Positions 240 to 56,150 of a stretch of DNA of 56,150 bases are shown here, in pieces. Every line of letters starts with the position of its first letter. Within the stretch, counting starts at the first letter, position 1. Below the pieces are notes generated by a model. The model was not told the origin of the DNA, searched no databases, and worked only from the letters and a program-made list of their open reading frames with translations. The stretch lies in IMG/VR virus record IMGVR_UViG_3300044858_006017, positions 1-56,150 of that record. One strand, written 5' to 3'. This DNA is from a virus. The translations under genes were made by a program, and so were the position numbers.

Positions 240-266
240 TAAAGTTTTTCTGCGGAGCTCCGATAA
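240..266 (+). promoter_or_regulatory. Sigma-28-type promoter for the methyltransferase operon
   Basis: TAAAGTTT (240-247), an 11-base spacer and TCCGATAA (259-266) match the FliA consensus TAAAGTTT-N11-GCCGATAA except for the first -10 base. It lies 26 bases upstream of the first methyltransferase start and just downstream of the TAGACA dyads, so a protein bound there could control it. Confidence 0.75.
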
Positions 267-291
267 GGAACGTAGAACCAAAGGAGGTTTT

Positions 292-783
292 ATGGGTAAT
301 CCTCTCGTGCCGAATAGCGGGAATGATAATGTTTACACACCTTTACAGACCGCAATAGAAGCGGTCTCTTTACTCCCTGTGCGCGGGCACGTGTTAGATC
401 CTTCATGTGGAGAAGGTGTTTTCGGGGAGGCTATCCGACAAGTTCATCAAAGTGCGGAATTAACTGAATACGATATAAAAGACGGCTTAGACTTTATGAA
501 CGAGCGTTTTTACTATAACTGGGTCATCACTAATCCGCCTTGGTCTAAATTTAAAGAGTTTCTTATTAAAGCTATGCAATGTACGGATAACGTAGCATTT
601 TTAGTGACCATCACACATTTTGTAACTAAAGCTCGGCTAAAACTTCTATGCGACCACGGGTTTTATTTAAAACAGATACACTGCATTGATACCCCACCTA
701 AACCGTGGCCCCAATCTGGTTTTCAGGTTGCAATGGTATGGTGCTCAAAAGAACCTTCGGAGGAGGTAAAATGGATTTATTAA
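292..783 (+). CDS. SAM-dependent DNA methyltransferase (N6-adenine type)
   Basis: This 163-residue protein has the two hallmarks of amino-methyltransferases. A glycine-rich SAM-binding motif, DPSCGEG, lies at residues 36-42, and the catalytic NPPW lies at 81-84. It is short and shows no target-recognition domain, as in many phage orphan methyltransferases. AAAGGAGG precedes the ATG. It is the first gene after a sigma-28-type promoter. No restriction enzyme is adjacent, so protection of phage DNA from host restriction, or epigenetic control, is the likely role. The family call is firm; the exact base and recognition site are unknown. Confidence 0.85.
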   Translation: MGNPLVPNSGNDNVYTPLQTAIEAVSLLPVRGHVLDPSCGEGVFGEAIRQVHQSAELTEYDIKDGLDFMNERFYYNWVITNPPWSKFKEFLIKAMQCTDNVAFLVTITHFVTKARLKLLCDHGFYLKQIHCIDTPPKPWPQSGFQVAMVWCSKEPSEEVKWIY

Positions 784-1157
784 GGATACATTACAGAGAG
801 GTCGTTACTCCGTTAGGAGTAGATTTGTTGTACGACGGAAGAACCTTAGTTTTTATGTGTAGGCAGATTTTACTGAAAACAAAACAGGCCATTATAGACC
901 AGGATGATGTTTTAGTGGTAGAGGGTGCCCGTGTTCTTTTAAGAAACCTCCCTAAATCCGGAAAGATAGACTTAAGTCCTAGTTTTAGTAAAGGTCACGG
1001 GCGTGCTTTCCAGCCAGAAACACAACAGGAGTATCTACAAACATTTGATTTTCTTGGTGTCTGCTCTATAGAAAATGAGGATATCGTTATCACGTTAGAG
1101 GTATTACCTGGGCACGGTCATCGGTGGTTTAACGCAAAAACAGGGAGATTCCTATGA
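771..1157 (+). CDS. Hypothetical protein between two methyltransferases
   Basis: This 128-residue protein has no recognised domain. The ATG at 771 is chosen because AGGAGG precedes it at good distance; the frame stays open further upstream to 705 but without a ribosome site. The start overlaps the end of the first methyltransferase, and its own end overlaps the next gene by four bases, so the three are probably translated together. Confidence 0.7.
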   Translation: MDLLRIHYREVVTPLGVDLLYDGRTLVFMCRQILLKTKQAIIDQDDVLVVEGARVLLRNLPKSGKIDLSPSFSKGHGRAFQPETQQEYLQTFDFLGVCSIENEDIVITLEVLPGHGHRWFNAKTGRFL

Positions 1158-1666
1158 ACATTCAGCATTCATCCAGAACGGACAGATGGTATACCCCACT
1201 CTACATAATCGAAATGGTTAAGGAGGTGTTGGGTGAAATTGACCTCGACCCCGCGTCTGAAGAACATGCCAATGAGGTAATCGGGGCACGGGAATTCTAT
1301 ACCCGGAATGCATTAAATGAAACCTGGGTAGCAAACAAGGTTTTCTTAAATCCTCCTGGAACCAAGATTGGAAACCAATCCCAATCAGCACTTTTCTGGG
1401 AAAAGCTCGTTTATCATTTTGATCGGGGACATATAGGAGAGGCTATCTTCATGGCATTCAGTGCTGAGCTGTTAGCTGTATCTCAGAAATATGGGCCTAA
1501 AAGCCTTTTGGATTTTACCGTCTGCATCCCTAAGAACAGAATTAGGTTTGTAGATCCATTAAGTCCTGGGAAATCAGCACCGAGCCATTCCAATGTGATT
1601 GTGTATTTAGGTGACAATGTAGATAAATTTAAACAGGTGTTTTCAAGAATAGGAGCTTGCAAATGA
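1154..1666 (+). CDS. Phage Dam-like N6-adenine methyltransferase
   Basis: This 170-residue protein fits the phage DNA N6-adenine methyltransferase (Dam_phage) family in length and motifs: WYTP near residue 12, DLDPAS at about 30-35 and the catalytic LNPPG at 65-69. It should transfer methyl groups from SAM to adenine in DNA. Its ATG overlaps the stop of the preceding gene, so it is translationally coupled. Two different methyltransferases side by side suggest modification of more than one site. No cognate nuclease is seen. Confidence 0.85.
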   Translation: MNIQHSSRTDRWYTPLYIIEMVKEVLGEIDLDPASEEHANEVIGAREFYTRNALNETWVANKVFLNPPGTKIGNQSQSALFWEKLVYHFDRGHIGEAIFMAFSAELLAVSQKYGPKSLLDFTVCIPKNRIRFVDPLSPGKSAPSHSNVIVYLGDNVDKFKQVFSRIGACK

Positions 1667-2088
1667 ATTTAGAAGAATATTTAGCAGACGGGCCGAAAAA
1701 GATGTTTTCCTTGCTGGAGGGGATTGTTACTGTGGGACTAATTAACTGCCACTTTTACCCTTATATTTTAGGGGCTAAATTTAGTTATATCGATGACGGT
1801 ACACGCCCGTCATCTAAATATCGAGTTTTACTAACCCTTGAAGAAGCCGCACAACTCGGGTTTGTAAAGAGGGTGGAGAGGGTGGAGCGTAGAGTTAAAT
1901 TTAGAAGCGCCTCTAACAAAGTGTTTATAACCGGAGCCGAGTATTTAGATAAAGCTGATTTTGAAGGGCACTTTCATCACGTAAGTGCAAAAGATGGGTT
2001 TATCTCGTTCGTGGATGATGAGTTAAACGAATGTCCGCCTCCGTCCGAGGAATGGGTAGAAACAATGCCCGAATTTATGAAAGTGTAA
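1663..2088 (+). CDS. Hypothetical protein, member of a three-copy phage family
   Basis: This 141-residue protein is of unknown function. The ATG at 1663 follows AGGAG; an in-frame TTG at 1657 is the alternative. The C-terminal phrase ISFVDDELNECPPP recurs almost unchanged in the product of 40239-40646, and the middle (tLEeAaqLGfVkr) matches it and the product of 40643-41083. The three are dispersed paralogues more than 38 kb apart. The family seems to be a small beta-rich fold ending in an acidic Trp-containing tail (EEWVE). Confidence 0.75.
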   Translation: MNLEEYLADGPKKMFSLLEGIVTVGLINCHFYPYILGAKFSYIDDGTRPSSKYRVLLTLEEAAQLGFVKRVERVERRVKFRSASNKVFITGAEYLDKADFEGHFHHVSAKDGFISFVDDELNECPPPSEEWVETMPEFMKV

Positions 2089-2102
2089 AAGGAGTTGATT
2101 AA

Positions 2103-2879
2103 ATGAAAGATATTTTTGAAGGGGTAAATTTGGACCGATTTAGTTTCCCCCTGTCCTTTTCCGAACCGACAGATCGAATAATGTACTCCCTTTTCAATAA
2201 ATATTTTAAACACAGAGATGACCACCGGCCTGGCTATTATTCCTTTGATGACCGTTTAGTAGACGATATTACTAAAGGGTTTCGTTGGTATTTTCCCCTC
2301 ACTTTACGTGAGAATGCTACTGAAATGGAAAAAATACTTTTTAGCGGTATTTCTGCCCAGGTACATCTAGCTTTTGTCTTAGGGTTTAACAGCTACTGTT
2401 TTTTTAAGGGCTGGGTTTTTGACGATGACCTTGATTTCCCCGGATCGCCTGATTTCCTAGATGGTTTGACTATCGTCGGTGTTATGGATTTTTTACGGAC
2501 GCAACCCCTTAGTTACGGTAAATTTAAACGTAAGTATAAAGAAGGGCCTATAAACACCGCAGCTGTGCTGGTTCGCCCTTTTAACATAAAATATGTTCCT
2601 GATGAGGAACTTACCCAGGAACTGTGTGACTTGGCCTACAGTCTAGAACCCCGCACGGCATTCTATATCCCTGAACGATTTGGAAAAAAAAAATACCCTC
2701 CCCCTCCCCCATGTGGCCCTCTTGCCCTCTACGTAACTGACCCTTTTGCTTTATTAAAAGTACGCGACCCTTCAAAAAATAACCTGCCTACCTTTTCCGT
2801 AAACGGATATAAGGTAACCGATTATATTACAGCCGCGGGTATAAGAAGGGAAATGCGGGTGTCTGGTCTTTGGGAATAG
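2103..2879 (+). CDS. Hypothetical protein, 258 residues
   Basis: No family is recognised. The protein is rich in aromatic residues and has a Pro-rich stretch (KKKYPPPPP) near residue 200. That stretch is encoded by a run of ten A and then C-rich DNA, a place where slippage or sequencing error could occur, although the frame stays open to the stop. AAGGAG lies upstream of the ATG. It is the last gene of the first plus-strand operon, and a terminator-like hairpin follows. Confidence 0.65.
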   Translation: MKDIFEGVNLDRFSFPLSFSEPTDRIMYSLFNKYFKHRDDHRPGYYSFDDRLVDDITKGFRWYFPLTLRENATEMEKILFSGISAQVHLAFVLGFNSYCFFKGWVFDDDLDFPGSPDFLDGLTIVGVMDFLRTQPLSYGKFKRKYKEGPINTAAVLVRPFNIKYVPDEELTQELCDLAYSLEPRTAFYIPERFGKKKYPPPPPCGPLALYVTDPFALLKVRDPSKNNLPTFSVNGYKVTDYITAAGIRREMRVSGLWE

Positions 2880-2886
2880 TTGGCCA

Positions 2887-2925
2887 CCCGGCCAGTAAAG
2901 TCAGAAAAAATGGCCGGGGTTTTCC
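2887..2925 (+). terminator. Intrinsic-terminator-like hairpin after the methyltransferase operon
   Basis: CCCGGCCA (2887-2894) pairs exactly with TGGCCGGG (2911-2918) across a 16-base loop, followed by GTTTTCC. An overlapping smaller hairpin TGGCC-4-GGCCA starts at 2881. The stem is strong but the U tract is short, so efficiency is uncertain. Confidence 0.55.
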
Positions 2926-2947
2926 AAGGTGCCTATAATCATAATAA

Positions 2948-2981
2948 CCCCCCCCCCCTCCGGAATACCCCCCCCCCCTCC
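2948..2981. repeat. Twin C11 tracts (G11 on the minus strand)
   Basis: Two runs of eleven C (about 2948-2958 and 2968-2978) lie nine bases apart, each flanked by AATA and TCC. They sit between the converging ends of the 258-residue gene and the minus-strand 64-residue gene. On the minus strand, runs of eleven and fourteen purines dominated by G could form a quadruplex. Homopolymer lengths may be inexact. Confidence 0.7.
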
Positions 2982-3014
2982 CAGGTCAGCATATTCAAAG
3001 GCTTACTCCCCCGT

Positions 3015-3209
3015 CTACCCCTCCCATCCATGGGTTAACCTCTCTCTCTCCAAAGCCTCCAGCTTTCGGAGTATAGACCAAAAATCTGGCCTATCCATAA
3101 TGGGGAGGCAGTACGCCTTCCCGTCCCTGGGTTCTATGAACAAAGTATCCGAAATGTGCTCTCTCTCTCCTCTAATGAATAACTCATCTCCAATTCTATA
3201 TGAAATCAT
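3015..3209 (-). CDS. Small hypothetical protein driven by the repeat-borne promoter
   Basis: This 64-residue protein of unknown function is the only minus-strand gene among plus-strand neighbours. Support is strong: GGAGG sits six bases before the ATG, and a sigma-28-type promoter lies 20-46 bases upstream inside the 110-base inverted repeat. The sequence is charged, with an Arg/Glu-rich helix near the C-terminus (LRKLEALERERL). Confidence 0.7.
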   Translation of the reverse strand: MISYRIGDELFIRGEREHISDTLFIEPRDGKAYCLPIMDRPDFWSILRKLEALERERLTHGWEG

Positions 3210-3219
3210 AAATTACCTC

Positions 3220-3329
3220 CTATAACACCTATCGGAACATAGACGGAATACTTTAATTTAATGGAAGAGGTTGAAAGAAAAGAATAAAGGAAGAAATTAA
3301 AGATTTTCTGGGAAATGACGAAGAGGATA
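3220..3329. repeat. 110-base inverted repeat, copy A
   Basis: This copy is identical base for base to the reverse complement of 56041-56150; identity stops at 3330. It carries an outward sigma-28-type promoter pointing left. On its right side it includes ATGACGAAGAGGATA, the first codons of a frame that closes after eight codons here but stays open for about 300 codons in copy B. Confidence 0.95.
3229..3255 (-). promoter_or_regulatory. Sigma-28-type promoter inside inverted-repeat copy A
   Basis: Read on the minus strand: TAAAGTAT, 11 bases, TCCGATAG. It is followed by GGAGG and the ATG of the 64-residue gene. The exact copy at 56115-56141 points rightward off the end of the window. Confidence 0.7.
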
Positions 3330-3364
3330 GTAAGGGAATGAACCCACAAAGAGGAGAATAGAAA

Positions 3365-3619
3365 ATGAAAACAATAAAAGAAGTTTTAAAAAGCCACGGA
3401 ATCGAAAGCACGTCCTACATGGGGGCAGAAATCCTCTTTGTCTTGAATAGTCATGGACAATGGGAAAACGGTGACAACAACGGAGACAGGTATGCTTTTT
3501 TTCTGAAAAACAATAAAATTTATATAGAGAAAAAAAGCATAGGTTCCTACCAATGTATCCCCGTCCCCTGGAAAGGGGAACGGCCAGAGGACATGAGTTT
3601 TGAGTACTACCGGTACTAA
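3365..3619 (+). CDS. Small hypothetical protein
   Basis: This 84-residue protein has no recognised family. GAGGAGAATAGAAA precedes the ATG. A closely similar leader (AGGAGAATAGAAA, then ATGAAAAC) precedes the next gene, suggesting duplicated initiation regions or shared ancestry of the 5' ends. A long antisense frame over both genes lacks a ribosome site and was discarded. Confidence 0.6.
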   Translation: MKTIKEVLKSHGIESTSYMGAEILFVLNSHGQWENGDNNGDRYAFFLKNNKIYIEKKSIGSYQCIPVPWKGERPEDMSFEYYRY

Positions 3620-3636
3620 GGAAAGGAGAATAGAAA

Positions 3637-3885: not shown

Positions 3886-3971
3886 AAAGATTGAAAAAAG
3901 GATCGGAAACGGGCCGGGTGGGGGGTTATGAATTTCAAGGTTTTTGAAAAGTTAAAACGAGGGGGGCGGGG

Positions 3972-10835: not shown

Positions 10836-11440
10836 TTGTTAGCTACCGCCTTCCTTAAGCCTTTGTGGTATGAAAAAGCTACTGAAGAGGTGTCAATCAA
10901 GCAACCTGCCTCAGCCCCAAACACACTATGACCTAAAGTTTCCACGAACTCAATATAGCATTGGTGAGTATGCCCTTGAACCACTGATTTCCCTAATAAT
11001 TTTGCCTTATCTATAGCTTTCATGGGGGCAAAATCCCCGTGCATATAAATAACCTTATCGATTTCAAGAGGTTTATGGTGCCATGCCCATCCTTCAAAGT
11101 CAAACTCGTTCCATGGAGCTATCATATTCTGGTGTTTCGTGGGTAATCTGCCGATTTTAGCCGATTTAATCATCCGGTGGTCGTGATTCCCTACTAAAAT
11201 ATCCATTTCAGGGAATAATCTGTGCATTTTCTTCATGTTTTCGCACACTCGTTTATACTCGATGTCGGGAGCGTCATGGGATACTTCCTTTTCAAACCGT
11301 GACCAGGAATACCCATCGATGATGTCTCCAAGTTGAATTATCCTATCTACATTCAACCTTAAAGCCAGCTTAGCAACGGCTTGGAGCTTTACCCAGTTCG
11401 TAAAAGGAAGATGGATATCCGGTATAGCTAATACTTTCAT
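10790..11440 (-). CDS. Calcineurin-like metallophosphoesterase
   Basis: This 216-residue protein has the full metal-binding motif series: DIH at 8-10, GDIIDG near 38-43, GNHDH near 84-88, an HGD and GHTH near the C-terminal third. This matches the metallophosphoesterase fold, which in phages includes protein phosphatases and nucleases. The ATG overlaps the stop of the polymerase gene and GAGG precedes it. Its place beside polymerase suggests a DNA or nucleotide substrate; the substrate cannot be read from sequence. Confidence 0.8.
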   Translation of the reverse strand: MKVLAIPDIHLPFTNWVKLQAVAKLALRLNVDRIIQLGDIIDGYSWSRFEKEVSHDAPDIEYKRVCENMKKMHRLFPEMDILVGNHDHRMIKSAKIGRLPTKHQNMIAPWNEFDFEGWAWHHKPLEIDKVIYMHGDFAPMKAIDKAKLLGKSVVQGHTHQCYIEFVETLGHSVFGAEAGCLIDTSSVAFSYHKGLRKAVANKCMLIDNGHPMIISV

Positions 11441-12354
11441 TATTTTGCCTCATAAAAATTTTCACCTACCGAAAACCCCATGCCGATAGGAACAGACCAA
11501 TTCAAGACTTGATTAAGTTTGGCCACGGCAGCTTCTTTGGCCTGTCGTAGCAAATCCACTTTATCACGTGGGCACTCTAACACAACTTCATCATGTATTA
11601 CAGTGACAAAAATAAAAGGAACATTGAAAAGGGCGCACTGTTCTATTAAATAGCTGATAAACATATGTAAAAGACCTGAAACCGAACTTTGAATAAGGTA
11701 ATTACAGGCTTTATGGGTGGAATCAAACTCGCTACTGGTGTCAAACACCAACCTATATCCGAACGCATTAGAAAACCAGCCTCTTTTACCTTTTGCTTGG
11801 AGCTTATCGGCTAATTTTTTCACACCACTAAAAGTGTGCCAATAAGCCCTATAAATCTCTTGAGCTCCCTGGAATGAGATTTCCCTGTTGAAAGCTTCGT
11901 AACTCTGTTTCTGGAGCTTTTTTGGGCCTAATCCATACAATAAAGCTAACGCCACCATTTTGTAGTATTGACGGTCACTGTCTATTGGTTTTTTAACTGC
12001 TTTCGAGTCTTTGAGCCATTGGGTAACAAAATCACCTTCAGGAAATGTTTTACCCCAGAGTTCTTTTAAAAGAATCTTCCCCTCTTTCGTGGCACTCATA
12101 AACATTAAATAAATATCATCAATCATCAAAATGTTGTCAGAATCCCAAAAAGGAGGTTTTCCTACTCCATCTAAAGTAGCATACCGATAACGGATATCTC
12201 CACTATAATGCGCTGTAACTGTAGGTTCCCCCGCACAGCAGTCTATTGATATAATTAGGTTTTTTTCATCTGGTAGGAGGTAGGAGCATTGCCCCCCTAA
12301 ACCCTTTATCCCTTTATCCCTCCGAGCCAAACCTTGCACATTTAGTTTACTCAT
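11440..12354 (-). CDS. Family-A DNA polymerase, C-terminal catalytic half
   Basis: This 304-residue protein holds the palm and fingers of a family-A polymerase. Motif A is SIDCCAGEP (catalytic Asp and Glu with normal spacing), motif B is RQYYKMVALALLYG and motif C is HDE (VIHDEVVLE). It lacks the exonuclease and the first part of the polymerase domain, which the upstream gene encodes. It begins exactly where a normal polymerase would continue after TGR...N, with LNVQGLARR. GGAGGT, which also encodes Gly-Gly at the end of the upstream gene, precedes the ATG, so separate translation is credible. The two chains would have to associate to work. Confidence 0.85.
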   Translation of the reverse strand: MSKLNVQGLARRDKGIKGLGGQCSYLLPDEKNLIISIDCCAGEPTVTAHYSGDIRYRYATLDGVGKPPFWDSDNILMIDDIYLMFMSATKEGKILLKELWGKTFPEGDFVTQWLKDSKAVKKPIDSDRQYYKMVALALLYGLGPKKLQKQSYEAFNREISFQGAQEIYRAYWHTFSGVKKLADKLQAKGKRGWFSNAFGYRLVFDTSSEFDSTHKACNYLIQSSVSGLLHMFISYLIEQCALFNVPFIFVTVIHDEVVLECPRDKVDLLRQAKEAAVAKLNQVLNWSVPIGMGFSVGENFYEAK

Positions 12355-13385
12355 TGATTACCTCCCGCAAAACGTCCCGTGGAAGTCCCGGCAAGTTTTA
12401 GAGAAACATGCCAACGGCCGTCCTCTTCACTTAATTCCAATAGGTTTTCCAATTGGGCCATGACGATCTGTCTGTTCTTTCTTTTATCGAGTTTAGCTGC
12501 AGCCTCTCCAAACTGTTTTAAATGAGCTTTTTTCAAAGAAGGTTTCCCTTTAGGTGTGGTATATAGAGTAGGTAGCCCCATAACTTTGGTGAAAAGAATT
12601 TCTCGGTGAAGATTAGAATCAATGTTAAAAGGAACATGGGAAACTATTTTCTTTTTAAACCTAGCCTGCTCCTTTTCGGTGATAATTCTCTCCACTTCCC
12701 CAATTTCGGCCTGAAGAGTGGTCTTAAACTCTTCTTCATTCTCAGCTAGTTCTTCTTTAATAGCCTCCAGATACTTTTTAATCCCTTCCCTGTCCACACG
12801 TATCCCCCGTATTTGGGAGTCTACAACTTCTTTTGCGGTGGAGAGGTATTTAACATGATCAATACGAGGGTCAAACCCTATTCCGAAAAAGTAATCTAGA
12901 ATTAAATGGGTCAGTTTCAACGTAGCTACTGCGTCCCCGATATTATACCGCCGAAGAATATCTGGAGGTAGGCGGGATAACTCTGATTTTTTCATTTTAT
13001 TAGCCGCAAGATAAGAGTGTGCTTCGGCTTCCCATGAGAGATCTTCTTCAGAGAGAATTCTTTTTGCCGCGTCTTTAAGACCATAACTCATAATCTGGGG
13101 GCGGTTGTCATAATTTTGGACAAGTCTCATACAGTCCCAGACAATGTTTAAGGAATATTGCGGGAACTTACATTTAAGCACCATAAGCTCAAACCCTACA
13201 TTATAGACCACGACGGGATGTTGTGTATCATGGAGGTGTTTGAGTATTAAATCAATATTTTCGGGGGTGTTTGCATATTCAGACTGGATGTATACATCCC
13301 CCCAAGCAATAGCAATAGATGTTACTGAATGCTTGGGTGACCACATCTCTAGCCCTGTTGTTTCAAAATCGAGAGCTACAAGCAT
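12351..13385 (-). CDS. Family-A DNA polymerase, N-terminal exonuclease half
   Basis: This 344-residue protein has the 3'-5' proofreading exonuclease motifs: DFE at 6-8, NVGFE near 60 and YNIGDA near 147. It continues into the start of the polymerase domain and stops directly after STGRFAGGNQ, inside the conserved TGRxxxxNLQ segment that shapes the active site. Its stop overlaps the start of the catalytic half by four bases. Adding one base near the junction would restore a single chain of about 650 residues, so the split is either real or caused by a one-base deletion. Confidence 0.85.
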   Translation of the reverse strand: MLVALDFETTGLEMWSPKHSVTSIAIAWGDVYIQSEYANTPENIDLILKHLHDTQHPVVVYNVGFELMVLKCKFPQYSLNIVWDCMRLVQNYDNRPQIMSYGLKDAAKRILSEEDLSWEAEAHSYLAANKMKKSELSRLPPDILRRYNIGDAVATLKLTHLILDYFFGIGFDPRIDHVKYLSTAKEVVDSQIRGIRVDREGIKKYLEAIKEELAENEEEFKTTLQAEIGEVERIITEKEQARFKKKIVSHVPFNIDSNLHREILFTKVMGLPTLYTTPKGKPSLKKAHLKQFGEAAAKLDKRKNRQIVMAQLENLLELSEEDGRWHVSLKLAGTSTGRFAGGNQ

Positions 13386-18846: not shown

Positions 18847-18874
18847 TTATCGGAATAAGTTTTAAAAACCTTTA
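18847..18874 (-). promoter_or_regulatory. Sigma-28-type promoter for the replication operon
   Basis: On the minus strand: TAAAGGTTT followed by TCCGATAA. The -35 box carries one extra G; spacing is 11 or 12 depending on alignment. It lies in the only gap between the PhoH and Cas4-like genes. Confidence 0.55.
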
Positions 18875-23966: not shown

Positions 23967-24731
23967 TTATACTATTCCATCAAGTTTATTGGTATATTCA
24001 ATATAAGCATTAGATGCTTCTTCTGCAGTTTTAAAATAACCAAGATACTTTCTTTTAATTCCTCTACCAAAATTAACTACGGCATAGTATGGTTTTTTTG
24101 GACATCTTTTGTCAAAAAGAACTCCCCGATAACCACATCGTCCTTTAATATCTGTTCGAGCCTGAGCTTTTTTTGCCATTAACAATTTAGTGGTTTCTGA
24201 ATGATTTTTGCCAAACATGGGTTGTTTTTCAGTCGACAGTCCTTTATTCCACGGCTCAAATTTCTCACTTTGTTTATTTTCAGGTCTATCTATTATTTTA
24301 GATCTAATACCTATCTCTATTTCAGAGATTTTTTTTAAAGTTCGTCGAATATAAATTTTGAGTGATAATTTTTTTCCATATCTGGGTTGTTGAGTTTTTG
24401 GTAATCCTTTATTCCAAGCTCGTAACCCCCTATTACCAATATGTCCGCCAAATTGTCGATTATATCCTTTTTTTGGATTAGCGGAATCAAATTCTTTTAT
24501 TAATCTAGTTTCTTCTTGATCTAACGTTTTAATATCAGGACATTCTAAAATAACCTCAAATTCAAATGCCTCCTTTCCGTATTTATTATACGACGCTTGA
24601 AGGTGTTTATTTTGATGAGTATTGGTCCTCAATTTATCTTTATGCCCATTATCTATTCTCACTTTGATATTTAAAGTTTGACCGATATAAACCTTTTTGT
24701 TGACTAAATTTGTTATTTTATAAATAAACAT
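23967..24731 (-). CDS. GIY-YIG homing endonuclease with NUMOD and AP2 DNA-binding modules
   Basis: This 254-residue protein has a GIY-YIG catalytic domain (FIYKITNLVNKKVYIGQT near the start, followed by a conserved Arg and Glu). NUMOD3-like repeats follow (GKKLSLKIY, GKNHSETTK), then an AP2-type domain (GYRGVLFDK ... RKYLGYFKTAEEASNAY). The ATG at 24731 follows GGAGG; an open extension upstream is unsupported. It interrupts the structural operon and has its own sigma-28-type promoter. It is a free-standing mobile endonuclease; its probable target is the intron- or insert-free allele at this site. Confidence 0.8.
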   Translation of the reverse strand: MFIYKITNLVNKKVYIGQTLNIKVRIDNGHKDKLRTNTHQNKHLQASYNKYGKEAFEFEVILECPDIKTLDQEETRLIKEFDSANPKKGYNRQFGGHIGNRGLRAWNKGLPKTQQPRYGKKLSLKIYIRRTLKKISEIEIGIRSKIIDRPENKQSEKFEPWNKGLSTEKQPMFGKNHSETTKLLMAKKAQARTDIKGRCGYRGVLFDKRCPKKPYYAVVNFGRGIKRKYLGYFKTAEEASNAYIEYTNKLDGIV

Positions 24732-24750: not shown

Positions 24751-24777
24751 TTATCGGTAATATCAAAATAAACCTTA
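24751..24777 (-). promoter_or_regulatory. Sigma-28-type promoter for the GIY-YIG gene
   Basis: On the minus strand TAAGGTTT, 11 bases, ACCGATAA. The -35 box overlaps the stop codon of the upstream structural gene, and the ATG of the endonuclease lies 20 bases after the -10 box. Confidence 0.65.
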
Positions 24778-30426: not shown

Positions 30427-30454
30427 AGTATAGATCACGGGGTGTATGTGTCAA
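30427..30454 (-). promoter_or_regulatory. Sigma-70-type promoter for the packaging/head operon
   Basis: On the minus strand TTGACA (30454-30449), 16 bases, TATACT (30432-30427). It lies about 40 bases upstream of the first gene of the operon. The -35 box matches consensus perfectly and the -10 differs at one base. Confidence 0.75.
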
Positions 30455-31369: not shown

Positions 31370-31396
31370 TAAAGTTCCTATAAAAACTTCCGATAA
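31370..31396 (+). promoter_or_regulatory. Sigma-28-type promoter ahead of a putative small RNA
   Basis: TAAAGTTC (31370-31377), 11 bases, TCCGATAA (31389-31396). Transcription would start near 31403 and meet an intrinsic terminator about 65 bases later. Confidence 0.75.
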
Positions 31397-31401: not shown

Positions 31402-31473
31402 ATGAGGGGTGAAAGCCTCTCATGACTTCTCCTTAGACTTTACCCCGGGTAATCTGCCTGGGGTTTTTCTTTT
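31402..31473 (+). ncRNA. Putative sigma-28-driven small RNA
   Basis: From the predicted start, the transcript would fold at once into ATGAGGGG-6-CCTCTCAT (31402-31423, eight pairs with one G-U). A single-stranded stretch of about 18 bases (31424-31441) follows, then a terminator hairpin. Promoter, 5' hairpin, short linker and terminator make a complete small-RNA gene of about 70 nucleotides with no open frame that has a ribosome site. It could alternatively be an attenuated leader of the Rha-like gene, but that gene has its own promoter just downstream. Confidence 0.55.
31442..31473 (+). terminator. Intrinsic terminator
   Basis: ACCCCGGG (31442-31449) pairs with CCTGGGGT (31457-31464) over a seven-base loop, followed by a T-rich run. 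It separates two successive sigma-28-type promoters. Confidence 0.85.
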
Positions 31474-31484
31474 CAAAATACCTC

Positions 31485-31511
31485 TAAAGTTTGCCCGTAG
31501 AGTTCCGATGA
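31485..31511 (+). promoter_or_regulatory. Sigma-28-type promoter for the Rha-like gene
   Basis: TAAAGTTT (31485-31492), 11 bases, TCCGATGA (31504-31511). It lies directly after the terminator and about 40 bases before the ATG. Confidence 0.7.
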
Positions 31512-31552: not shown

Positions 31553-32521
31553 ATGACTGATTTAGTACCGTCCCAATTCGTTTCCCCCTCCCCACGTCCT
31601 GAGCTCAATGGTGAGTTAGGCTTGGATTTGCACGAGATTGCAAAGAGTCTGGGTGTAGATTTTAAACACGTGAAAGAGAAATACCTTCGTATGGAAAAAG
31701 CCAATAGAATCAAAGGAGCCGTATATACGGCTACAATAGATTCAGGGACTTACACAGAGCGCACAATTGAGTCCTATGTCCTGGATTTAGACTCTGCCAA
31801 GTTCTTCGTTGCTAAATGGGACTCTGAAGTTGGGGACGCTTACACCCGATTCCTCATCCAATGTGAAAAGAAACTTGAGAGAACCCAATCCCAACTCGAA
31901 ACCCTTTTCACCGACCCGAGGAAAGGAGCCGAGTTTCTGACCAAGGTGGCCGAGCTTAAGGAAGAGAAGGACGCACTAGCTGCCCGAATCCCTCAATTGG
32001 AGTCGGAGAGAGACCATGCTATTAAAACAAAAGGCCAGATTTCCAGCAATAAAGCGGCAACTTCTATGGTTAGGTTAAGTAATCTGGTTCAGTATATGAG
32101 GAAAAGAGGTATCCCCATCCCTGCCTATGCGGAAATAGATAGTGAGGAGGGGGCTCTAGAGAGAGTTCGGGAACTTGAAGAACTGCTTAAAAAGCATGAT
32201 GCCGCTTTAGAGGCGTACCGGAGAAAAGAAGACCTCCAAGATGAAAAAAATCTAACCTACATCCCTACATCTAAGAACGGAACAGGGTTTAATGAGGTAT
32301 TGAAAAGATGGGGGTATATCCTCACAGTGGGGAATAACAGAGACATCAATAAAGTCATTAGGTGCTACCTGTCAAATATCGGAGGGGAAATTTTATGGGC
32401 AGATTCTACTTTCAAAGGTGCCCCCTCAAAACGGTGTCTTTGGCACCCACAGTTTTTAGATGAAAACAAAGGTCGTATTTTAAATTTTCTGACAAATGAG
32501 GGGTGGTTAAAGAAAGCCTAA
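31553..32521 (+). CDS. Rha-family anti-repressor-like regulator
   Basis: This 322-residue protein has an N-terminal part (LDLHEIAKSLGVDFKHVKEKYLRM ... RTIESYVLDLDSAKFFVAKW) following the pattern of phage Rha/anti-repressor domains, with a helix-turn-helix-like start and a core ending in a long coiled coil (about 105-160). The last 90 residues form a separate domain rich in aromatics. It likely controls phage gene expression. The start at 31553 follows GAGG; the frame is open upstream through the small RNA and promoter. Family identity is moderately sure. Confidence 0.55.
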   Translation: MTDLVPSQFVSPSPRPELNGELGLDLHEIAKSLGVDFKHVKEKYLRMEKANRIKGAVYTATIDSGTYTERTIESYVLDLDSAKFFVAKWDSEVGDAYTRFLIQCEKKLERTQSQLETLFTDPRKGAEFLTKVAELKEEKDALAARIPQLESERDHAIKTKGQISSNKAATSMVRLSNLVQYMRKRGIPIPAYAEIDSEEGALERVRELEELLKKHDAALEAYRRKEDLQDEKNLTYIPTSKNGTGFNEVLKRWGYILTVGNNRDINKVIRCYLSNIGGEILWADSTFKGAPSKRCLWHPQFLDENKGRILNFLTNEGWLKKA

Positions 32522-32545
32522 AGTTCTTCCCAAAAGTTCCGATAG
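32519..32545 (+). promoter_or_regulatory. Sigma-28-type promoter overlapping the Rha-like stop codon
   Basis: TAAAGTTC (32519-32526), 11 bases, TCCGATAG (32538-32545). The first three bases are the stop codon of the regulator gene. Confidence 0.75.
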
Positions 32546-33019: not shown

Positions 33020-34000
33020 ATGGGGCAGGTAAGATTTGAGTTTTCTGAACTAAGTGTTTACGAGATGATTGCTAGTTTAAATCGAGGAAGTATACAAATA
33101 CCTTTTTATCAGCGTAAATATTCATGGGTAAAGACACGCGCGGGGAAAGAGGTAGAGTTTATCAAGTTTCTCCATAGAAACCGATGTCTAACTTCTATGA
33201 TTATTTTAGACAGACAAGCAGATAATAAGGACACACGTTTCATCCTAGATGGAATGCACCGGCTAAAGTGCCTCCAGCGGTTTTTTAATTTAGAATTTGA
33301 AGTAGAGGGGGTAGTTCCAAGAGATATTGAGGGTATTTATATTAAGATAGTTACAGGGGTTTTTGAGAGCGACAGTGACAGACTAGAGATTTTTAATAGT
33401 CTAAACACAACCTCTACAAAAATGGAGACCTCTTTTGTCCAGTATGTAACTAATAATTTAACAGACACACACCCTACCCAGCCGGTATTTAAAGCTATAC
33501 GTGAAACAGAGAATACCCATACCCTTAACGCAGAGGAGAGGCATACACAGAGGCATGTTTTATACCAAAATCTGTGTCAGTTTTTATTATCCTATTCTGA
33601 AGGGGTGGTTAAGGAGAACCCTGAAATGTATTTTCCATATACCCCTAAAAAGAAAAATGATATGGAAAATATTGTTTATGACCTACCTGAATGGGTTTAT
33701 AAAGCTGTAGAGCCTGACATTTTATCTACTGTGCTAAAGTATTTAATACTTTTCCAGTCACCCTCTTATAAAAAATATATAAAAAACGCTGCAAAAGATA
33801 GTAAATCCCCGATAGGAAAGTATTTAGCTCTTCTACTCGGGAAAATTTTTTACGAAGGCCTCTATCAAAAAGATAGTTTGTCGCTTTCTGATGAGGCCGC
33901 TGTATTAAAAAGGTTGATAGAAAAAGCTTCTGCGAAAAAATATTATAAGGTTAAAGGGGCAAACCAACTACCTATGCTATTAAAAATGGTGTGGGAATAA
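33020..34000 (+). CDS. DUF262-family protein (GmrSD/ParB-nuclease-fold type)
   Basis: This 326-residue protein has an N-terminal IQIPFYQRKYSW near residues 25-36, then FILDGMHRLKCLQRFF near 75-90 and FNSLNTTSTKM near 125-135. These are the three blocks of DUF262, with DGMHR replacing the usual DGQQR. In bacteria the domain occurs in GmrS of the type IV restriction system and in other defence proteins, where it binds or hydrolyses nucleotides. The phage copy has no GmrD-like (DUF1524 HNH) part. A role in inter-phage competition or counter-defence is possible. Confidence 0.7.
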   Translation: MGQVRFEFSELSVYEMIASLNRGSIQIPFYQRKYSWVKTRAGKEVEFIKFLHRNRCLTSMIILDRQADNKDTRFILDGMHRLKCLQRFFNLEFEVEGVVPRDIEGIYIKIVTGVFESDSDRLEIFNSLNTTSTKMETSFVQYVTNNLTDTHPTQPVFKAIRETENTHTLNAEERHTQRHVLYQNLCQFLLSYSEGVVKENPEMYFPYTPKKKNDMENIVYDLPEWVYKAVEPDILSTVLKYLILFQSPSYKKYIKNAAKDSKSPIGKYLALLLGKIFYEGLYQKDSLSLSDEAAVLKRLIEKASAKKYYKVKGANQLPMLLKMVWE

Positions 34001-34016: not shown

Positions 34017-34043
34017 TAAAGTTTTCCTATATTCCTCCGATAT
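34017..34043 (+). promoter_or_regulatory. Sigma-28-type promoter for lipoprotein and ribonucleotide reductase genes
   Basis: TAAAGTTT (34017-34024), 11 bases, TCCGATAT (34036-34043). A near-perfect palindrome AAAGCTGC-1-GCAGCTTT (34001-34017) touches the -35 box and could be an operator or the end of the upstream transcript. Confidence 0.75.
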
Positions 34044-34367: not shown

Positions 34368-36206
34368 ATGGATAAAGGTTTGAAATTCTTGTCTGATTTA
34401 GTTTTTGCTCGAACTTATGCTGCCAAAAAACCCAATGGATACAAAGAAACGTGGGAAGAGGCCGTCCAACGTGTTATCGGTATGCATTGTGCTAAATTCC
34501 CCCACCTTGAGGCCGAAATCAGGGCCACAGTAGAAAAGCCGATGCTTGAAAAATGGGTTGTTCCTTCGATGCGTACTCTGCAGTTTGCTGGTGGTGGAGT
34601 GGAGAGAGAGAGCTTCCGCGCATTTAATTGCTCCTATTTGTCAATAAAATCATTTAGTTCCTTCGCAGAACTGTTCTATATTCTCATGAACGGAACTGGT
34701 GTGGGTTACTCGGTTAAAGCACACCATGTTGCACAATTACCAAAAATTCCAGACAAAGGTAAATTTAAGGTATTTCGAATTCCGGATTCCAAGGAAGGTT
34801 GGGCAGATAGTGTTTTAAAACTGTTTAAAAACCCTTGGCAGGTATTTGATTATTCCGCTATTAGACCTGCAGGAAGCCCTTTATCAACAGGTGGAACGGC
34901 AAGTGGGCCTGAAGCTTTGATGAAACTTCATGAGAAAGTGGGACGGATTCTCTTGGGTGCTCTCGGTCGTCAGTTAACCCCAATGGAGGCATCAGATATC
35001 GTGTGCCACATAGCTGATGGTGTTGTGGTCGGAGGGGTTCGAAGGGCTGCATTAATCTGTCTTTTTGATACAGTTGAGATGCTCACCTATAAAAGCGGTG
35101 CTTGGTGGGAAGAGAATCCTCAACGGGCACGAGCTAACATAAGTTTTGTTTTATTACGGGATGACCCTTGGGCTAAAGAAAAGTTTAGCAGCATTATGGA
35201 TGCCTGTTTTGCGTCAGGTAGTGGTGAACCCGGGCTGATATTTGCAAATGATATCGAGACGGGATGGAACCCGTGTGCGGAAATAACCCTACGGGATAAC
35301 GGGGTTTGTAATCTTACGGAGGTAGTTTGGCCAGCTGTTCGATACAACCATCAATTTTACACGGCTCTCCACGCGGCAATTGCTCTCGGTTGTTTACAAG
35401 CCTCCTACACCGATTTCGGGTATGTGAATCCTGAATGGAAAAGGAATGCTGACGATGAAGCATTACTCGGCGTGTCAATTACAGGTCAGGCTGAAGGGTG
35501 GGATGAACTCATTGCCACCATCGACGTCCCCAATTTTAAAGAAACTGTTGACTATTTAACTGATAAATGGGCCAAACTTGTAGGAATTAACCCGCCAAAA
35601 CGGACACTTACGACGAAACCCTCCGGAACAACGAGTGCTTTACTTGGGGTTACAAGTGGAATTCATGCGGCTCATTCCGAATTTCACATTAGGCGTGTTC
35701 GTATCGACGTTTCCCACCCACTTGCTATACACCTCGCGGGATTGCCCGAATTTAAGCCCTTCATAGAGCTTGATAAGTTCAATCCGAGTAATTATGTAAT
35801 CAGTATTCCTGTTCAAAAGGTTGGCGCCGTAACAAGATCACAGGAATCAGCCATTGATTTATTAAACCGGATGAAAAAGATTAATGAAGTTTGGGTTTCA
35901 AAAGGTCATTATGAAGGAAAAGATACACACAACGTCAGCCTCACCGTGTCATACAAACCCGAGGAAGAGGCGGGAATTAAAGAATGGATGTGGAACAACC
36001 GAAACGTATATTGTGGGATAAGCCTACTACCTTATGACGGAGGAACGTATGTCCAGGCACCTTTTCAAGAGATTGATAAAGAGACTTATGAGAGACTTTC
36101 TGCCGAGTTCCCACAAATTGATCTGTCTGGCGTGAATTTTGGCGCTACGGCTGATGAACGGATAGGTGAAGTTGCATGCGGGGCAAACGGCTGTGAGCTG
36201 GTCTAA
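34368..36206 (+). CDS. nrdJ: Adenosylcobalamin-dependent ribonucleotide reductase (class II)
   Basis: This 612-residue enzyme makes deoxyribonucleotides using vitamin B12 coenzyme. Visible marks are FNCSY (first active-site Cys), NPCAE and GVCNLTEV (radical and partner Cys/Glu region), KPSGTTS (phosphate-binding loop) and the C-terminal redox pair CGANGC. It is monomeric-type and somewhat shorter than bacterial RTPR. A class II enzyme needs no oxygen or second subunit, which suits hosts in low-oxygen or B12-containing settings. It is the core of the phage nucleotide pathway. Confidence 0.9.
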   Translation: MDKGLKFLSDLVFARTYAAKKPNGYKETWEEAVQRVIGMHCAKFPHLEAEIRATVEKPMLEKWVVPSMRTLQFAGGGVERESFRAFNCSYLSIKSFSSFAELFYILMNGTGVGYSVKAHHVAQLPKIPDKGKFKVFRIPDSKEGWADSVLKLFKNPWQVFDYSAIRPAGSPLSTGGTASGPEALMKLHEKVGRILLGALGRQLTPMEASDIVCHIADGVVVGGVRRAALICLFDTVEMLTYKSGAWWEENPQRARANISFVLLRDDPWAKEKFSSIMDACFASGSGEPGLIFANDIETGWNPCAEITLRDNGVCNLTEVVWPAVRYNHQFYTALHAAIALGCLQASYTDFGYVNPEWKRNADDEALLGVSITGQAEGWDELIATIDVPNFKETVDYLTDKWAKLVGINPPKRTLTTKPSGTTSALLGVTSGIHAAHSEFHIRRVRIDVSHPLAIHLAGLPEFKPFIELDKFNPSNYVISIPVQKVGAVTRSQESAIDLLNRMKKINEVWVSKGHYEGKDTHNVSLTVSYKPEEEAGIKEWMWNNRNVYCGISLLPYDGGTYVQAPFQEIDKETYERLSAEFPQIDLSGVNFGATADERIGEVACGANGCELV

Positions 36207-36210
36207 GGAT

Positions 36211-36237
36211 TAAAGTTCTTCTCAAAAGTTCCGATAT
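36211..36237 (+). promoter_or_regulatory. Sigma-28-type promoter for the dUTPase operon
   Basis: TAAAGTTC (36211-36218), 11 bases, TCCGATAT (36230-36237), five bases after the reductase stop. Confidence 0.75.
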
Positions 36238-36244: not shown

Positions 36245-36270
36245 AGAGGCAATTTAGCCTCTTTTATTTT
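36245..36270 (+). terminator. Leader hairpin with T-rich tail, possible attenuator
   Basis: AGAGGC-6-GCCTCT followed by TTTATTTT lies within the first bases of the transcript predicted from the promoter just upstream, and before the ribosome site of the 96-residue gene. It may attenuate transcription or protect the 5' end; the stem has only six pairs. Confidence 0.45.
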
Positions 36271-37731: not shown

Positions 37732-37758
37732 TAAAGTTTTCCTGTGAATCACCGATAT
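37732..37758 (+). promoter_or_regulatory. Sigma-28-type promoter for the small-gene and lipoprotein cluster
   Basis: TAAAGTTT (37732-37739), 11 bases, ACCGATAT (37751-37758), in the gap after the deaminase gene. Confidence 0.75.
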
Positions 37759-37789: not shown

Positions 37790-38038
37790 GTGTATTTAGC
37801 AAAGAAATGTAAAGAAGATGCTACCGAGTTTCATTGTTCAGAAAGAGCTTTGTTTAAGCCTAAAGGACACCTAAATTTATATAGGGAGTTGTGTAAAACG
37901 GCAGCGGAGCACGGATATATGTCTTTGACGTTACCTGATACCTTAACCCGTGAAGAAGAATCACGGTTAATAAATGACGGGTTTCTTATTACCAAGACAA
38001 ACGGAATCATCCTTATCAACTGGGAAGGTGCCAAATGA
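37790..38038 (+). CDS. Small hypothetical protein with GTG start
   Basis: This 82-residue protein has a GTG start after AAAGGAG. Pattern hints: Cys and His near the N-terminus and a helical middle. No family is recognised. It overlaps the next start by four bases. Confidence 0.55.
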   Translation: MYLAKKCKEDATEFHCSERALFKPKGHLNLYRELCKTAAEHGYMSLTLPDTLTREEESRLINDGFLITKTNGIILINWEGAK

Positions 38039-47337: not shown

Positions 47338-47344
47338 TTATACC

Positions 47345-47400
47345 CCTTGATTTTTTACATCACTTTATGTATATACGTAACTTGAGCCTAAAAATCAAGG
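47345..47400. promoter_or_regulatory. Symmetric bidirectional sigma-70-type promoter
   Basis: One self-complementary -10 box TATATA (47370-47375) serves both strands. On the plus strand TTGATT lies at 47347-47352 with 17 bases between; on the minus strand TTGATT lies at 47398-47393, again with 17 bases. The outer ten bases CCTTGATTTT/AAAATCAAGG form an exact inverted repeat. It should fire the portal operon leftward and the tail operon rightward from one site. Confidence 0.75.
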
Positions 47401-47407
47401 AGTAAAA

Positions 47408-51039: not shown

Positions 51040-51040
51040 T

Positions 51041-54000: not shown

Positions 54001-54130
54001 CGTCCAAGATTACTTCCCGGATTCCAGACCATCCGAAGGATTTAGAATAAGTGGGTTAAGTTTTGAGTTAGGTATAGAGCCTGGATTGAAGAGATTGAAC
54101 GGGAATAGAGGGATGACTAGTTTAGGCTAA
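51041..54130 (+). CDS. Large tail hub/nozzle-like protein
   Basis: This 1029-residue protein, the largest of the genome, is beta-rich throughout. Segments such as FDNRLFIAGLEQPNDLMFSKQWV, EITSIFPMDDKLIIFKQNAIYYL and GRTLVFDYYFKQWFTFTG follow one another like blades of a beta-propeller. Long podovirus proteins with this make-up build the tail tube or nozzle below the adaptor (T7 gp12 or P22 gp10 role). Position after adaptor and fibre genes agrees. Last gene of the operon, converging on the 54139 gene nine bases away. Confidence 0.65.
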   Translation: MALQKQLVQAPLGLGIDTKTDPKQVASSGLLELENGIIKQTGEIRKRYGVAKLSGDILQSDSNISSSSKLETYNNELLLFNRDNVFSYAESLNAWANKGLLSTIDGSTSPIVANSYEQTGGDIASTNGITLYAWEDSRGGVRYSVIDQASGAALVYDAQVNINGMRPRCVAVGAYFFLFCYQTFTNNLEVYRISTTSPSLGVSATAAGDISTTEPIYDVTVFGSRMLLAYKNTSNKLKFTYWLQTNITGNPAYGVPSALEITAETPSQCLTIIQGEDFGSTPTFSILFFNSSTGLRHLAYYADFTEYKSAIVVDNTVSPIVRNVTAVAHGEKIEYFAEYEAASAINRYIKRGEVYLAPNSAANVAEFQRAGGLVSKAYRVNDATKVHVSYESTANFLNTLFVLGTAEDRSGALGWGYNWGYDWGGISLYAVVESKLLTGVHGGHNLEGAGGLDGSSPLPGVWFTAANEAISCTSRRTRIVADNISTYTLRGLDKIEIDYNAARVGPSAQLGENLHIPGGFLRAYDGVSVVEHGFHMFPDAIQVANSVTAGSVANGTYQYVAVYEWIDGKGQLHRSAPSIPVSHTVSGGPKGVDITVPTLRYTAKQSPERTAPIVAIYRTTNAGTLYYKVSDDTDPLYNLVNADTVTFVDTLADASITSKPLLYTTGGTLENISVPACNIVASFDNRLFIAGLEQPNDLMFSKQWVVDEGVAFNDFLRINVSPTGGEITSIFPMDDKLIIFKQNAIYYLSGEGPTDVGQQNLYRIQQIASDVGCSVPESVCLMPLGLMFKSLKGIYLLDRALNAVYIGSQVEAYNGLSITGGNLVPTQNQVRFTSSEGRTLVFDYYFKQWFTFTGQSASSSIAWKNQFTYSASDGSVFSEEDGRYDDNGSVISTKITTGWLSFAGLQGYKRVYLAQLFGELKGSHTLSVKLSYDFKNSYSEEFTAALDTGATYGDGLYGDIGVYGGTDGTMHYEVQPARQKCTSIKVTVQDYFPDSRPSEGFRISGLSFELGIEPGLKRLNGNRGMTSLG

Positions 54131-54138
54131 TCTCCCTC

Positions 54139-54393
54139 CTATTTATTTTTAGGTTTCCATACCATTTTCATACAGTGCCTATTAGCAGTAGGGATTATCT
54201 CCCAACCGCGATTCAAATAAACAGTCACTTCAAGATCTGCACATGCAGTGTAAAATGTTGTTTGACCAGGCCGCTCTTGTTGGGCAGCCTCCGCTGCATA
54301 ATATTGTTCTCGATTACACCCACCTGCAGCTATTGCAAAAAAATATAAGACTGTAGCCCATAGAACTGCCATAATACTAGCAAATATATTCAT
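54139..54393 (-). CDS. Small secreted or lipid-anchored protein
   Basis: This 84-residue protein has an N-terminal hydrophobic segment (IFASIMAVLWATVLYFFAIAAGGC) ending in AAGGC, a plausible lipobox before Cys26. The remaining 58 residues carry two Cys and two Trp. GGAG precedes the ATG. An outer-membrane spanin subunit is one possibility, though it lies far from the lysis genes. Confidence 0.55.
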   Translation of the reverse strand: MNIFASIMAVLWATVLYFFAIAAGGCNREQYYAAEAAQQERPGQTTFYTACADLEVTVYLNRGWEIIPTANRHCMKMVWKPKNK

Positions 54394-54397
54394 CTTT

Positions 54398-54571
54398 CTA
54401 TTCTCCTAAATTCTTTGGTATCAACGTGACTACAACTTCTTCACCTACTATTTCTATTCGGAAAGATTCTTTTAATTCTTTATCATAGAAAAATACCACA
54501 TTGTTGGATGCAAGAACTCTGATATGGTATTCAGTCAATCTGTCAATAATGGTAGCTTCAAGCTCGTCCAT
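54398..54571 (-). CDS. Small hypothetical protein, 57 residues
   Basis: Open from ATG 54571 to TAG 54400-54398, overlapping the upstream gene end by 14 bases and leaving five bases before the next ATG. The product is acidic with strands (VVFFYDKELKESFRIEIVGEE). Its ribosome site is weak. It fills what would otherwise be a 160-base gap. Confidence 0.5.
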   Translation of the reverse strand: MDELEATIIDRLTEYHIRVLASNNVVFFYDKELKESFRIEIVGEEVVVTLIPKNLGE

Positions 54572-54824
54572 ACTTAGCCTGCAATCTCTCTGTCTCGGCC
54601 TGCAGAAATTTAAACCGCTCTTCGATTTCAGTTATCGCGGTAGGGATTTGCTCTTCCTTTTCCACCAGCCTCACAACGGCATGACCGTCAAACGTTCCTG
54701 TTACATAGATGCCGAGGTCGAACACTTCAATCTTAATCTTTATCTCTTTTTTTAATCTATCCTCCTCTGTTATTTCAGCACAAAGAAACTTTATCTGATC
54801 TAAATAAGTTATCTCGGGTATCAT
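54558..54824 (-). CDS. Hypothetical protein, 88 residues
   Basis: Beta-rich first part (KIKIEVFDLGIYVTGTFDGHAVVRLVE) and a coiled-coil end (ERFKFLQAETERLQAKYG). No family is recognised. AAAGGAG precedes the ATG. Confidence 0.6.
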   Translation of the reverse strand: MIPEITYLDQIKFLCAEITEEDRLKKEIKIKIEVFDLGIYVTGTFDGHAVVRLVEKEEQIPTAITEIEERFKFLQAETERLQAKYGRA

Positions 54825-54829
54825 TTTCT

Positions 54830-55093
54830 TTACTCCTTTTCTTCGCGATCTAGTAGTGCTAGTTTTCTTTCGAGACAGTATATAAAACGCTCTTTTACCT
54901 TATCTACTTTCTCCTTACGAAAAAACCAGGCTCCCTCAAGACCCGCGTTTTTTTCACGATTTTTTTCTATAAGTCGATGCCTAATCTCATCTAACCTTTC
55001 CACTTCAGATTCGTAGTCTCCCCGAGCATTCTCGATATCCTTATCGATCAGGTCGTGTAACATTGCTAATGTCTGTCGTCGTGATATCTGCAT
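54830..55093 (-). CDS. Coiled-coil hypothetical protein
   Basis: This 87-residue protein is almost wholly charged helix. The start at 55093 after AAAAGGAG is preferred over the open extension to 55165. Unknown function. Confidence 0.6.
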   Translation of the reverse strand: MQISRRQTLAMLHDLIDKDIENARGDYESEVERLDEIRHRLIEKNREKNAGLEGAWFFRKEKVDKVKERFIYCLERKLALLDREEKE

Positions 55094-55158
55094 TTTGTTT
55101 CTCCTTTTATTGAGCTGTATTGCTCTTATAATCCTTTTCGACACATTTTCAAAAAACT

Positions 55159-56013
55159 TTAGCACATATAGTCGGTATCTGTTTTTCTACCAGGGTCATC
55201 TTCTTCGGAGGCGTATCCCCAGATACCAAAGAAGTCGTGTGCTGCAATCCGCACCATATGTCGAAATTTTTTTGATGATATCACCCCTACACCTCTGTCC
55301 CTAATAAATAACTGCACTGCGTGGTCTTTCGGTATGTCATCAATATTGATACCCGGGTGTCTATTAGGGTCTCTTATGCCCCTAAAAACCCTTCTACCAT
55401 ATTCCTCCTCATCTGCTGGTCGATTAAAATTTTTTAGTTTTTTATCATGTTTCATAAAATGATCCTGTAAAAACAGGAATATGCTCCATGTATATGGTCT
55501 AACCAACTCACAGCTTTTTGTAAAATACTCCCTGTTTTCAGGAAGAAACATCCAGTCTTCATACTTCCTTGGTTCCTTCTTCATTTTTTCATAAGGTGTT
55601 AAACTGTCATCGGAATTTTTGATAAAAGGTTGATGAATGTACCCCAGGCCATATGAAGCCAGATGCAGCATTACATGCCTGTAGTCTAAAAAATTAGCTA
55701 TAGTTACATCCATACCAGATATCAAAGTCTGATTGATTTTATCGATTGTTAGTTTAATGTCTAATGCATGGTTTGTAGGTTCTTTATAATTTTTATGAAA
55801 AAACTCTATACACTTCTTTTTCCACTCTCTGTGCATTCTTAATGTGTATTGCTCATCAGTTTCGTCCCTATAATAAGATTTCATCCACTCGAACGGGCCA
55901 CGACTATACGGATCATTGAACAAAACATCAGGAAACTGCTCAGGCTCTAAACCAAAAAGCAATTTATTTACCACCATCATTGGGTATGTAAATGTTTCAA
56001 TAACACAGGGCAT
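55159..56013 (-). CDS. Hypothetical protein, 284 residues
   Basis: No family is recognised. It is rich in Tyr, Trp, His and charged residues and has no signal or membrane segment. AAGGAG, seven bases before the ATG at 56013, marks this start. The frame continues 14 codons upstream to an ATG inside the inverted repeat, where five codons are shared with an eight-codon frame at 3315 in copy A. First gene of the minus-strand right-end operon. Confidence 0.55.
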   Translation of the reverse strand: MPCVIETFTYPMMVVNKLLFGLEPEQFPDVLFNDPYSRGPFEWMKSYYRDETDEQYTLRMHREWKKKCIEFFHKNYKEPTNHALDIKLTIDKINQTLISGMDVTIANFLDYRHVMLHLASYGLGYIHQPFIKNSDDSLTPYEKMKKEPRKYEDWMFLPENREYFTKSCELVRPYTWSIFLFLQDHFMKHDKKLKNFNRPADEEEYGRRVFRGIRDPNRHPGINIDDIPKDHAVQLFIRDRGVGVISSKKFRHMVRIAAHDFFGIWGYASEEDDPGRKTDTDYMC

Positions 56014-56040
56014 TCTGATTCTCCTTATCAACCTACCTAT

Positions 56041-56150
56041 TATCCTCTTCGTCATTTCCCAGAAAATCTTTAATTTCTTCCTTTATTCTTTTCTTTCAAC
56101 CTCTTCCATTAAATTAAAGTATTCCGTCTATGTTCCGATAGGTGTTATAG
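56041..56150. repeat. 110-base inverted repeat, copy B at the end of the window
   Basis: Exact reverse complement of 3220-3329. The window ends with its last base, so the true repeat may be longer. Here the sigma-28-type promoter points off the right end and the minus-strand operon points inward. Confidence 0.95.
56115..56141 (+). promoter_or_regulatory. Sigma-28-type promoter in inverted-repeat copy B
   Basis: TAAAGTAT (56115-56122), 11 bases, TCCGATAG (56134-56141). No gene follows inside the window, so at least one further gene past the right end is expected. Confidence 0.65.

Follow-up and report, generated by a model that had tools for sequence, protein, structure and literature searches.

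Does a phage place a whole class of its genes under promoters of the flagellar sigma-28 (FliA/SigD) type? Phages are known to use the housekeeping sigma factor or to bring a sigma factor of their own. The question is raised by a stretch of viral DNA of 56,150 nucleotides, which is the whole of IMG/VR record IMGVR_UViG_3300044858_006017 (classed linear) and is called the window here; 3,558 of its bases are noncoding. A reading made from the sequence alone had listed ten distinct sites resembling sigma-28 promoters. We confirm that this promoter set is real and repeated. We further consider it fairly likely that the sites are promoters read by the sigma-28 polymerase of the host, which would drive early and middle genes, with the terminase and capsid genes transcribed from sigma-70.

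Promoter set in the window

Sites were scored as the number of matches out of 14 against TAAAGTTT-N11-nCCGATA, and a site was counted when it reached at least 13 of 14. The window scan gave 10 such sites, 9 of them distinct (the one at 56115 duplicates the one at 3255). The site at 18874 (minus strand) completes the ten distinct ones; it has a score of 12, a spacer of 12 and the -35 element TAAAGGTT. All sites listed by the sequence-only reading are present, and its count of nine spacers of exactly 11 among ten distinct sites was right, 18874 being the exception. Every one of the ten is intergenic and fits TAAAGTTT-N11-nCCGATAnG. The same reading had suggested a comparison of gaps with genes and shuffled sequence; all sites were found in noncoding DNA, with 0.05 sites expected by chance in first-order Markov sequence and a mean of 0.017 sites in the window for letter-permuted motifs (n=60).

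The -35 element TAAAGTTT is matched in 7-8 of its 8 bases at nine sites, and the -10 core CCGATA is exact at nine of ten, the site at 31485 having CCGATG. The window contains 30 TAAAGTT heptamers, six of which have CCGATA behind them at an offset of exactly 20, and no other hexamer is recurrent; 20 bases is the only offset found between TAAAG and CCGATA. The base preceding CCGATA is T or A at all ten sites and not the G of the enterobacterial consensus, and the second base after CCGATA is a G at all ten, a feature which had previously been missed. At eight of the nine sites having a downstream gene the start codon lies 18-44 bases past the -10, and the ribosome-binding sites ahead of these start codons are purine-rich, usually GGAGG-like. 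The proposal of a genome-wide sigma-28-type set for one gene class (regulation, methylation, replication and nucleotide metabolism) is supported, and the set repeats in related as well as unrelated phages.

The last 113 bases of the window (56038-56150, the very end of the contig) are an inverted copy, 99% complementary, of positions 3220-3332, and the site at 56115 is therefore probably an assembly artefact duplicating one promoter.

Related and other uncultured phages

A scan of IMG/VR with the exact motif carrying T and AAG gave 63 stretches, compared to 9 for the same motif ending in TG. TAAAG-N15-CCGATA is found 3-9 times in many of these contigs, and its reversed control once in all 50 records. 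Full scans gave 32 strong sites in G441 (120 kb), 17 in G001 (169 kb), 11 in G430, 8 in G434, 6 in G432 and 5 each in G412, G431 and G440, with 0-1 sites in the reversed controls of G441, G001, G430-G432, G434, G412 and G440. Most of the sites in these contigs are positioned outside open reading frames (ORFs), 20-30 bases upstream of one. A contig chosen by motif alone (G445/L292) is a relative of the window phage by protein (terminase 32%, portal 36%, capsid 33%).

The bias of selecting by motif was removed by collecting relatives by portal and capsid alone, without using the motif, resulting in 151 loci covering 2.0 Mb. These contain 24 strong sites versus 1 in the reversed control. A strong site is carried by only about 20 of the 151 loci, which mostly cover the structural region.

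G441 (L327-L332) has two promoter classes, both with a near-perfect TAAAGTTT. The CCGATA class precedes genes of small proteins, which are often clustered at one end of the contig, and the CCGTTA class (TAAAGTTT-N11-nCCGTTAAG), of which there are 24-27 copies, precedes replication and other genes. No match was found for the DNA of window positions 1-25000 in 50,697 phages, or for the capsid and tail proteins of the clade in 50,697 cultured phage records. A predicted promoter set of the flagellar type is not unique to the window, since many other uncultured phages carry one, and the data suggest that adaptation to swimming cells is a trait of an entire phage group.

RNA polymerase reading the sites

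The T or A before CCGATA had been taken as a hint of a slightly different sigma factor. This argument does not hold, as the base is free in the relatives (T, G, A and C) and the exact T-type motif precedes a Legionella flagellin gene and is conserved ahead of three orthologous regulator genes (GAF/sigma-54-activator) of Bacteriovoracaceae. As T is found at these bacterial promoters too, the T/A base is not a defining one. Neither Sigma70_r2 nor Sigma70_r4 of Pfam has a match in the window and Sigma70_r2 has none in G001; no sigma family, including the PHROG sigma, is found among the window proteins scanned. With the T-type motif at Legionella and Bacteriovoracaceae promoters and no sigma domain found, host sigma-28 is the simplest reader, and we regard it as quite probable that RNA polymerase carrying host sigma-28 (FliA/SigD type) reads the sites. 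An early or middle timing of the genes behind them is likewise probable.

The phage would enter cells rich in sigma-28 holoenzyme, i.e. cells in a free-swimming stage; in a swimming predator the sigma-28 polymerase would be dominant at entry. Infection may then be restricted to motile cells, or the phage may redirect flagellar RNA polymerase, as the sequence-only reading proposed. The sigma-28 sites would drive the genes of methyltransferases, of an Ant-like regulator, of a recombination/polymerase operon, of nucleotide metabolism and of one homing endonuclease; a small RNA is probably among their products as well. The DNA would be copied under this sigma-28 regime and particles would then be made from sigma-70 promoters. 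Sigma-70-type sites had been proposed ahead of both the terminase and the portal/tail operons. The first part stands, with an 11/12 site at 30454 on the minus strand ahead of the terminase/capsid operon. The second does not, as the gap 47338-47407 before the portal and tail operons has no sigma-70 site of comparable quality. Sigma-70-like matches in the window overall are not above shuffles (27 versus 33).

Possible hosts

Roughly two in three of the 140 attack-phase promoters of Bdellovibrio bacteriovorus have a FliA-like site, TTAAG-N16-CCGATA (PMC3627812), and a later promoter study agrees (PMC12622784). Nine of the 80 loci with the T-type motif among the genome matches listed belong to Bacteriovoracaceae, Halobacteriovoraceae or Oligoflexales, i.e. 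are of Bdellovibrionota type. Nine genomes of the Bdellovibrionota phylum, which differ widely in guanine-cytosine content, share a conserved promoter to which the 31370 promoter is identical over 28 bases, spacer included. The terminase of G412, a phage with sigma-28 sites, has its best match in a Silvanigrella phage, and the terminases of G001 and G441 match Myxococcus phage Mx1 only. A 20-kb piece searched for CRISPR-like (clustered regularly interspaced short palindromic repeats) or homologous DNA against 369 Bdellovibrionota genomes gave short matches at chance level, except five on the 31370 promoter. A host among the Bdellovibrionota, or a similar predator with an attack phase run by FliA, is the leading candidate, which we hold with some reserve. 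There is about an even chance that the phage infects some other flagellated bacterium, not of the Bdellovibrionota, in which sigma-28 is simply abundant and which has no link to predators; the motif is common to many phyla among the genome matches listed, and Nitrospirae, Chitinimonas and other genomes have at least as many exact sites per genome as Bacteriovoracaceae, whereas the weak hints favour the Bdellovibrionota or a neighbouring group. As host markers, tRNAs gave one tRNA-Ile in G001 and none in the window, and ribonucleotide reductase was discarded, being too promiscuous to name a host.

Two observations on Bdellovibrionota-phylum genomes are given separately. A leader, TACGCAGCA...T[AC]AAGTTCCTATAAAAAnTTCCGA[TA]AAG...TTACGCA, is conserved in nine of them (L546-L554) ahead of a family of short proteins for which Pfam gives no match. 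One genome (L247, G245) contains a weak portal-like match interrupted by three TAG codons in frame, which may point to a phage with a recoded stop or to gene decay.

Several points weigh against reading by host sigma-28 in such a host. The 28-base identity was noticed only after the fact, and we put the probability of its arising by chance at a few per cent. Strong sites are absent from phi1422 and phi1402, the two tailed phages of Bdellovibrio in culture, by which a general use of sigma-28 sites by Bdellovibrio phages is ruled out, and a Silvanigrella phage has none either. The portal has no close homologue in the 369 Bdellovibrionota genomes, where two weak matches at 21% identity were obtained, and the host link is therefore circumstantial. 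The phage may encode a divergent sigma factor escaping Pfam. Finally, sigma-28 may not be the sole reader of the sites, because several relatives interleave a full sigma-70 promoter, TTGACA-N17-TATAAT, with them and the window keeps a TATAAT-like -10.

Alternative readers of the sites

The window sites have a TATAAT-like element (A in position 2 and T in position 6) in the sequence directly behind the -10, always with an offset of +2; this, too, had been missed before. Podovirus relatives have the composite TAAAGTTTGACA-...-nCCGATAAG-TTATAAT, in which TTGACA (mean 4.1 of 6) and TATAAT are exactly 17 apart. The sites could thus be composite promoters of interleaved sigma-28 and sigma-70 elements, with early genes transcribed by whichever holoenzyme dominates and the sigma-70 half decayed in the window to a TATAAT-like -10. 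In the window 81% of cells have this A and T at offset +2; the value is 93% for the CCGATA class of G441 and 41% for bacterial sigma-28 loci, and the TATAAT match across 127 viral sites is above 2000 shuffles. However, an excess of TTGACA is absent both from the window sites, which score 2.5 of 6 like bacterial sigma-28 loci, and from the CCGATA class of G441, and G001 and the CCGTTA class of G441 fit poorly; we consider composite promoters in the window unlikely.

Reading by a phage-encoded or phage-modified sigma factor of sigma-28-like specificity is improbable: the site density is far above that of host genomes, the uniform CCGTTA class of G441 is what a modified specificity might give, and G440 encodes a homologue (34%) of the putative sigma factor of Myxococcus phage Mx1, but the motif is the host sigma-28 consensus, Pfam sigma domains were found neither in the window nor in G001, and Mx1, the bearer of that putative sigma factor, has none of the strong sites over the 150 kb covered.

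Comparison with known systems

Reading by host sigma-28 was compared with four known systems. The flagellar promoters of FliA/sigma-28 (sigma-F/SigD) share with the window set TAAAGTTT, the 11-base spacer, CCGATA and the position just before genes. The window set differs in being on a phage and driving replication and takeover genes, as well as in its T/A instead of G before CCGATA, the fixed G two bases after and the TATAAT-like overlap. The attack-phase FliA regulon of B. bacteriovorus (PMC3627812) likewise places non-flagellar genes of a whole life stage under FliA with a CCGATA -10, but on a host chromosome and with TTAAG-N16-CCGATA; Bdellovibrio and like organisms are only a candidate host of the phage. 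In T4, phiEco32/7-11 and T5, which use their own sigma factor or early promoters of host sigma-70, a promoter class also sets a temporal gene class, whereas the sigma factor of the window class is apparently the flagellar one of the host, no phage sigma having been found. Flagellotropic phages (chi and others) depend on motile cells, as the window phage would; the flagellum is their receptor, while the link of the window phage would be transcriptional. The open-access full texts searched yielded no description of a phage regulon of this kind, consistent with the statement of the sequence-only reading that none was known.

If the reading by host sigma-28 is true, virus gene expression would depend on the stage of the cell, giving a natural timer with a sigma-28 stage for DNA replication and a sigma-70 stage for particles, and metagenomes could be searched by the promoter signature for phages whose hosts are motile or predatory. 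As a signature it is usable already, since contigs picked by motif turned out, by protein, to be relatives of the window phage. A wider proposal, which we regard as rather doubtful, is that several unrelated lineages of uncultured phages run early and middle genes on the sigma factor with which their hosts, probably predators among the Bdellovibrionota and allied groups, control motility, tying infection to the free-swimming stage, and that at least in G441 the CCGATA and CCGTTA classes differ in timing, which would imply that sigma-28 is retuned by a phage factor.

Sites and the genes behind them

Table 1. Promoter sites and a candidate small RNA in the window, with the genes that follow
Feature	Position	Strand	Context
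Sigma-28-type promoter, 14/14	240..265	+	ahead of methyltransferase operon 292-2879 (two methyltransferases); start codon 26 bases after -10
Sigma-28-type promoter, 13/14	3230..3255	-	ahead of 64-amino-acid ORF 3209-3015; start codon 20 bases after -10
Sigma-28-type promoter, spacer 12	18848..18874	-	ahead of recombination/replication operon
Sigma-28-type promoter (TAAGGTTT)	24752..24777	-	ahead of GIY-YIG homing endonuclease gene 24725-23967
Sigma-70 promoter TTGACA-16-TATACT, 11/12	30427..30454	-	ahead of terminase/capsid operon; contrasts with sigma-28 set
Sigma-28-type promoter	31370..31395	+	followed by 73-nucleotide two-hairpin stretch and terminator
Candidate small RNA	31403..31475	+	about 73 nucleotides, two hairpins, fold z -3.7
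Sigma-28-type promoter (CCGATG)	31485..31510	+	ahead of Ant-like anti-repressor gene 31553-32521
Sigma-28-type promoter	32519..32544	+	ahead of small ORFs and GmrSD_N/DUF262 gene 33020-34000
Sigma-28-type promoter, 14/14	34017..34042	+	ahead of lipoprotein-like gene and B12-type ribonucleotide reductase gene 34368-36206
Sigma-28-type promoter	36211..36236	+	ahead of dUTPase and dCMP deaminase genes
Sigma-28-type promoter, 14/14	37732..37757	+	ahead of small-ORF operon starting at 37790
Copy of 3255 site	56115..56140	+	inside terminal inverted repeat

The operon behind 18874 comprises a Cas4-like nuclease (18830), a helicase, RecT, a split DNA polymerase A and a dNMP kinase. The 31370 promoter has no gene of its own close downstream. 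It probably makes a small RNA, given the two-hairpin fold of the stretch behind it, in which the second hairpin (31442-31464) resembles a terminator and has a run of T. An Rfam search of the window, the relatives and G441 gave no matches. The transcript from 36211 would open with a hairpin at 36245-36262.

Homing endonuclease genes of the GIY-YIG/NUMOD type with a sigma-28-type promoter of their own were found in the window (23967-24725), in L351 (near 1065) and in L044 (near 6582). Upstream of the 240 promoter, window positions 1-230 are rich in palindromes and in TGTCTA/TAGACA repeats, which may serve as operators or as an origin. The family A DNA polymerase at 11440-13385 is split over two adjacent ORFs, one with the exonuclease part and one with the polymerase part. 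A 53-base stretch is present in three diverged copies (1813, 40383 and 40799), within paralogous small ORFs lacking an assigned function.

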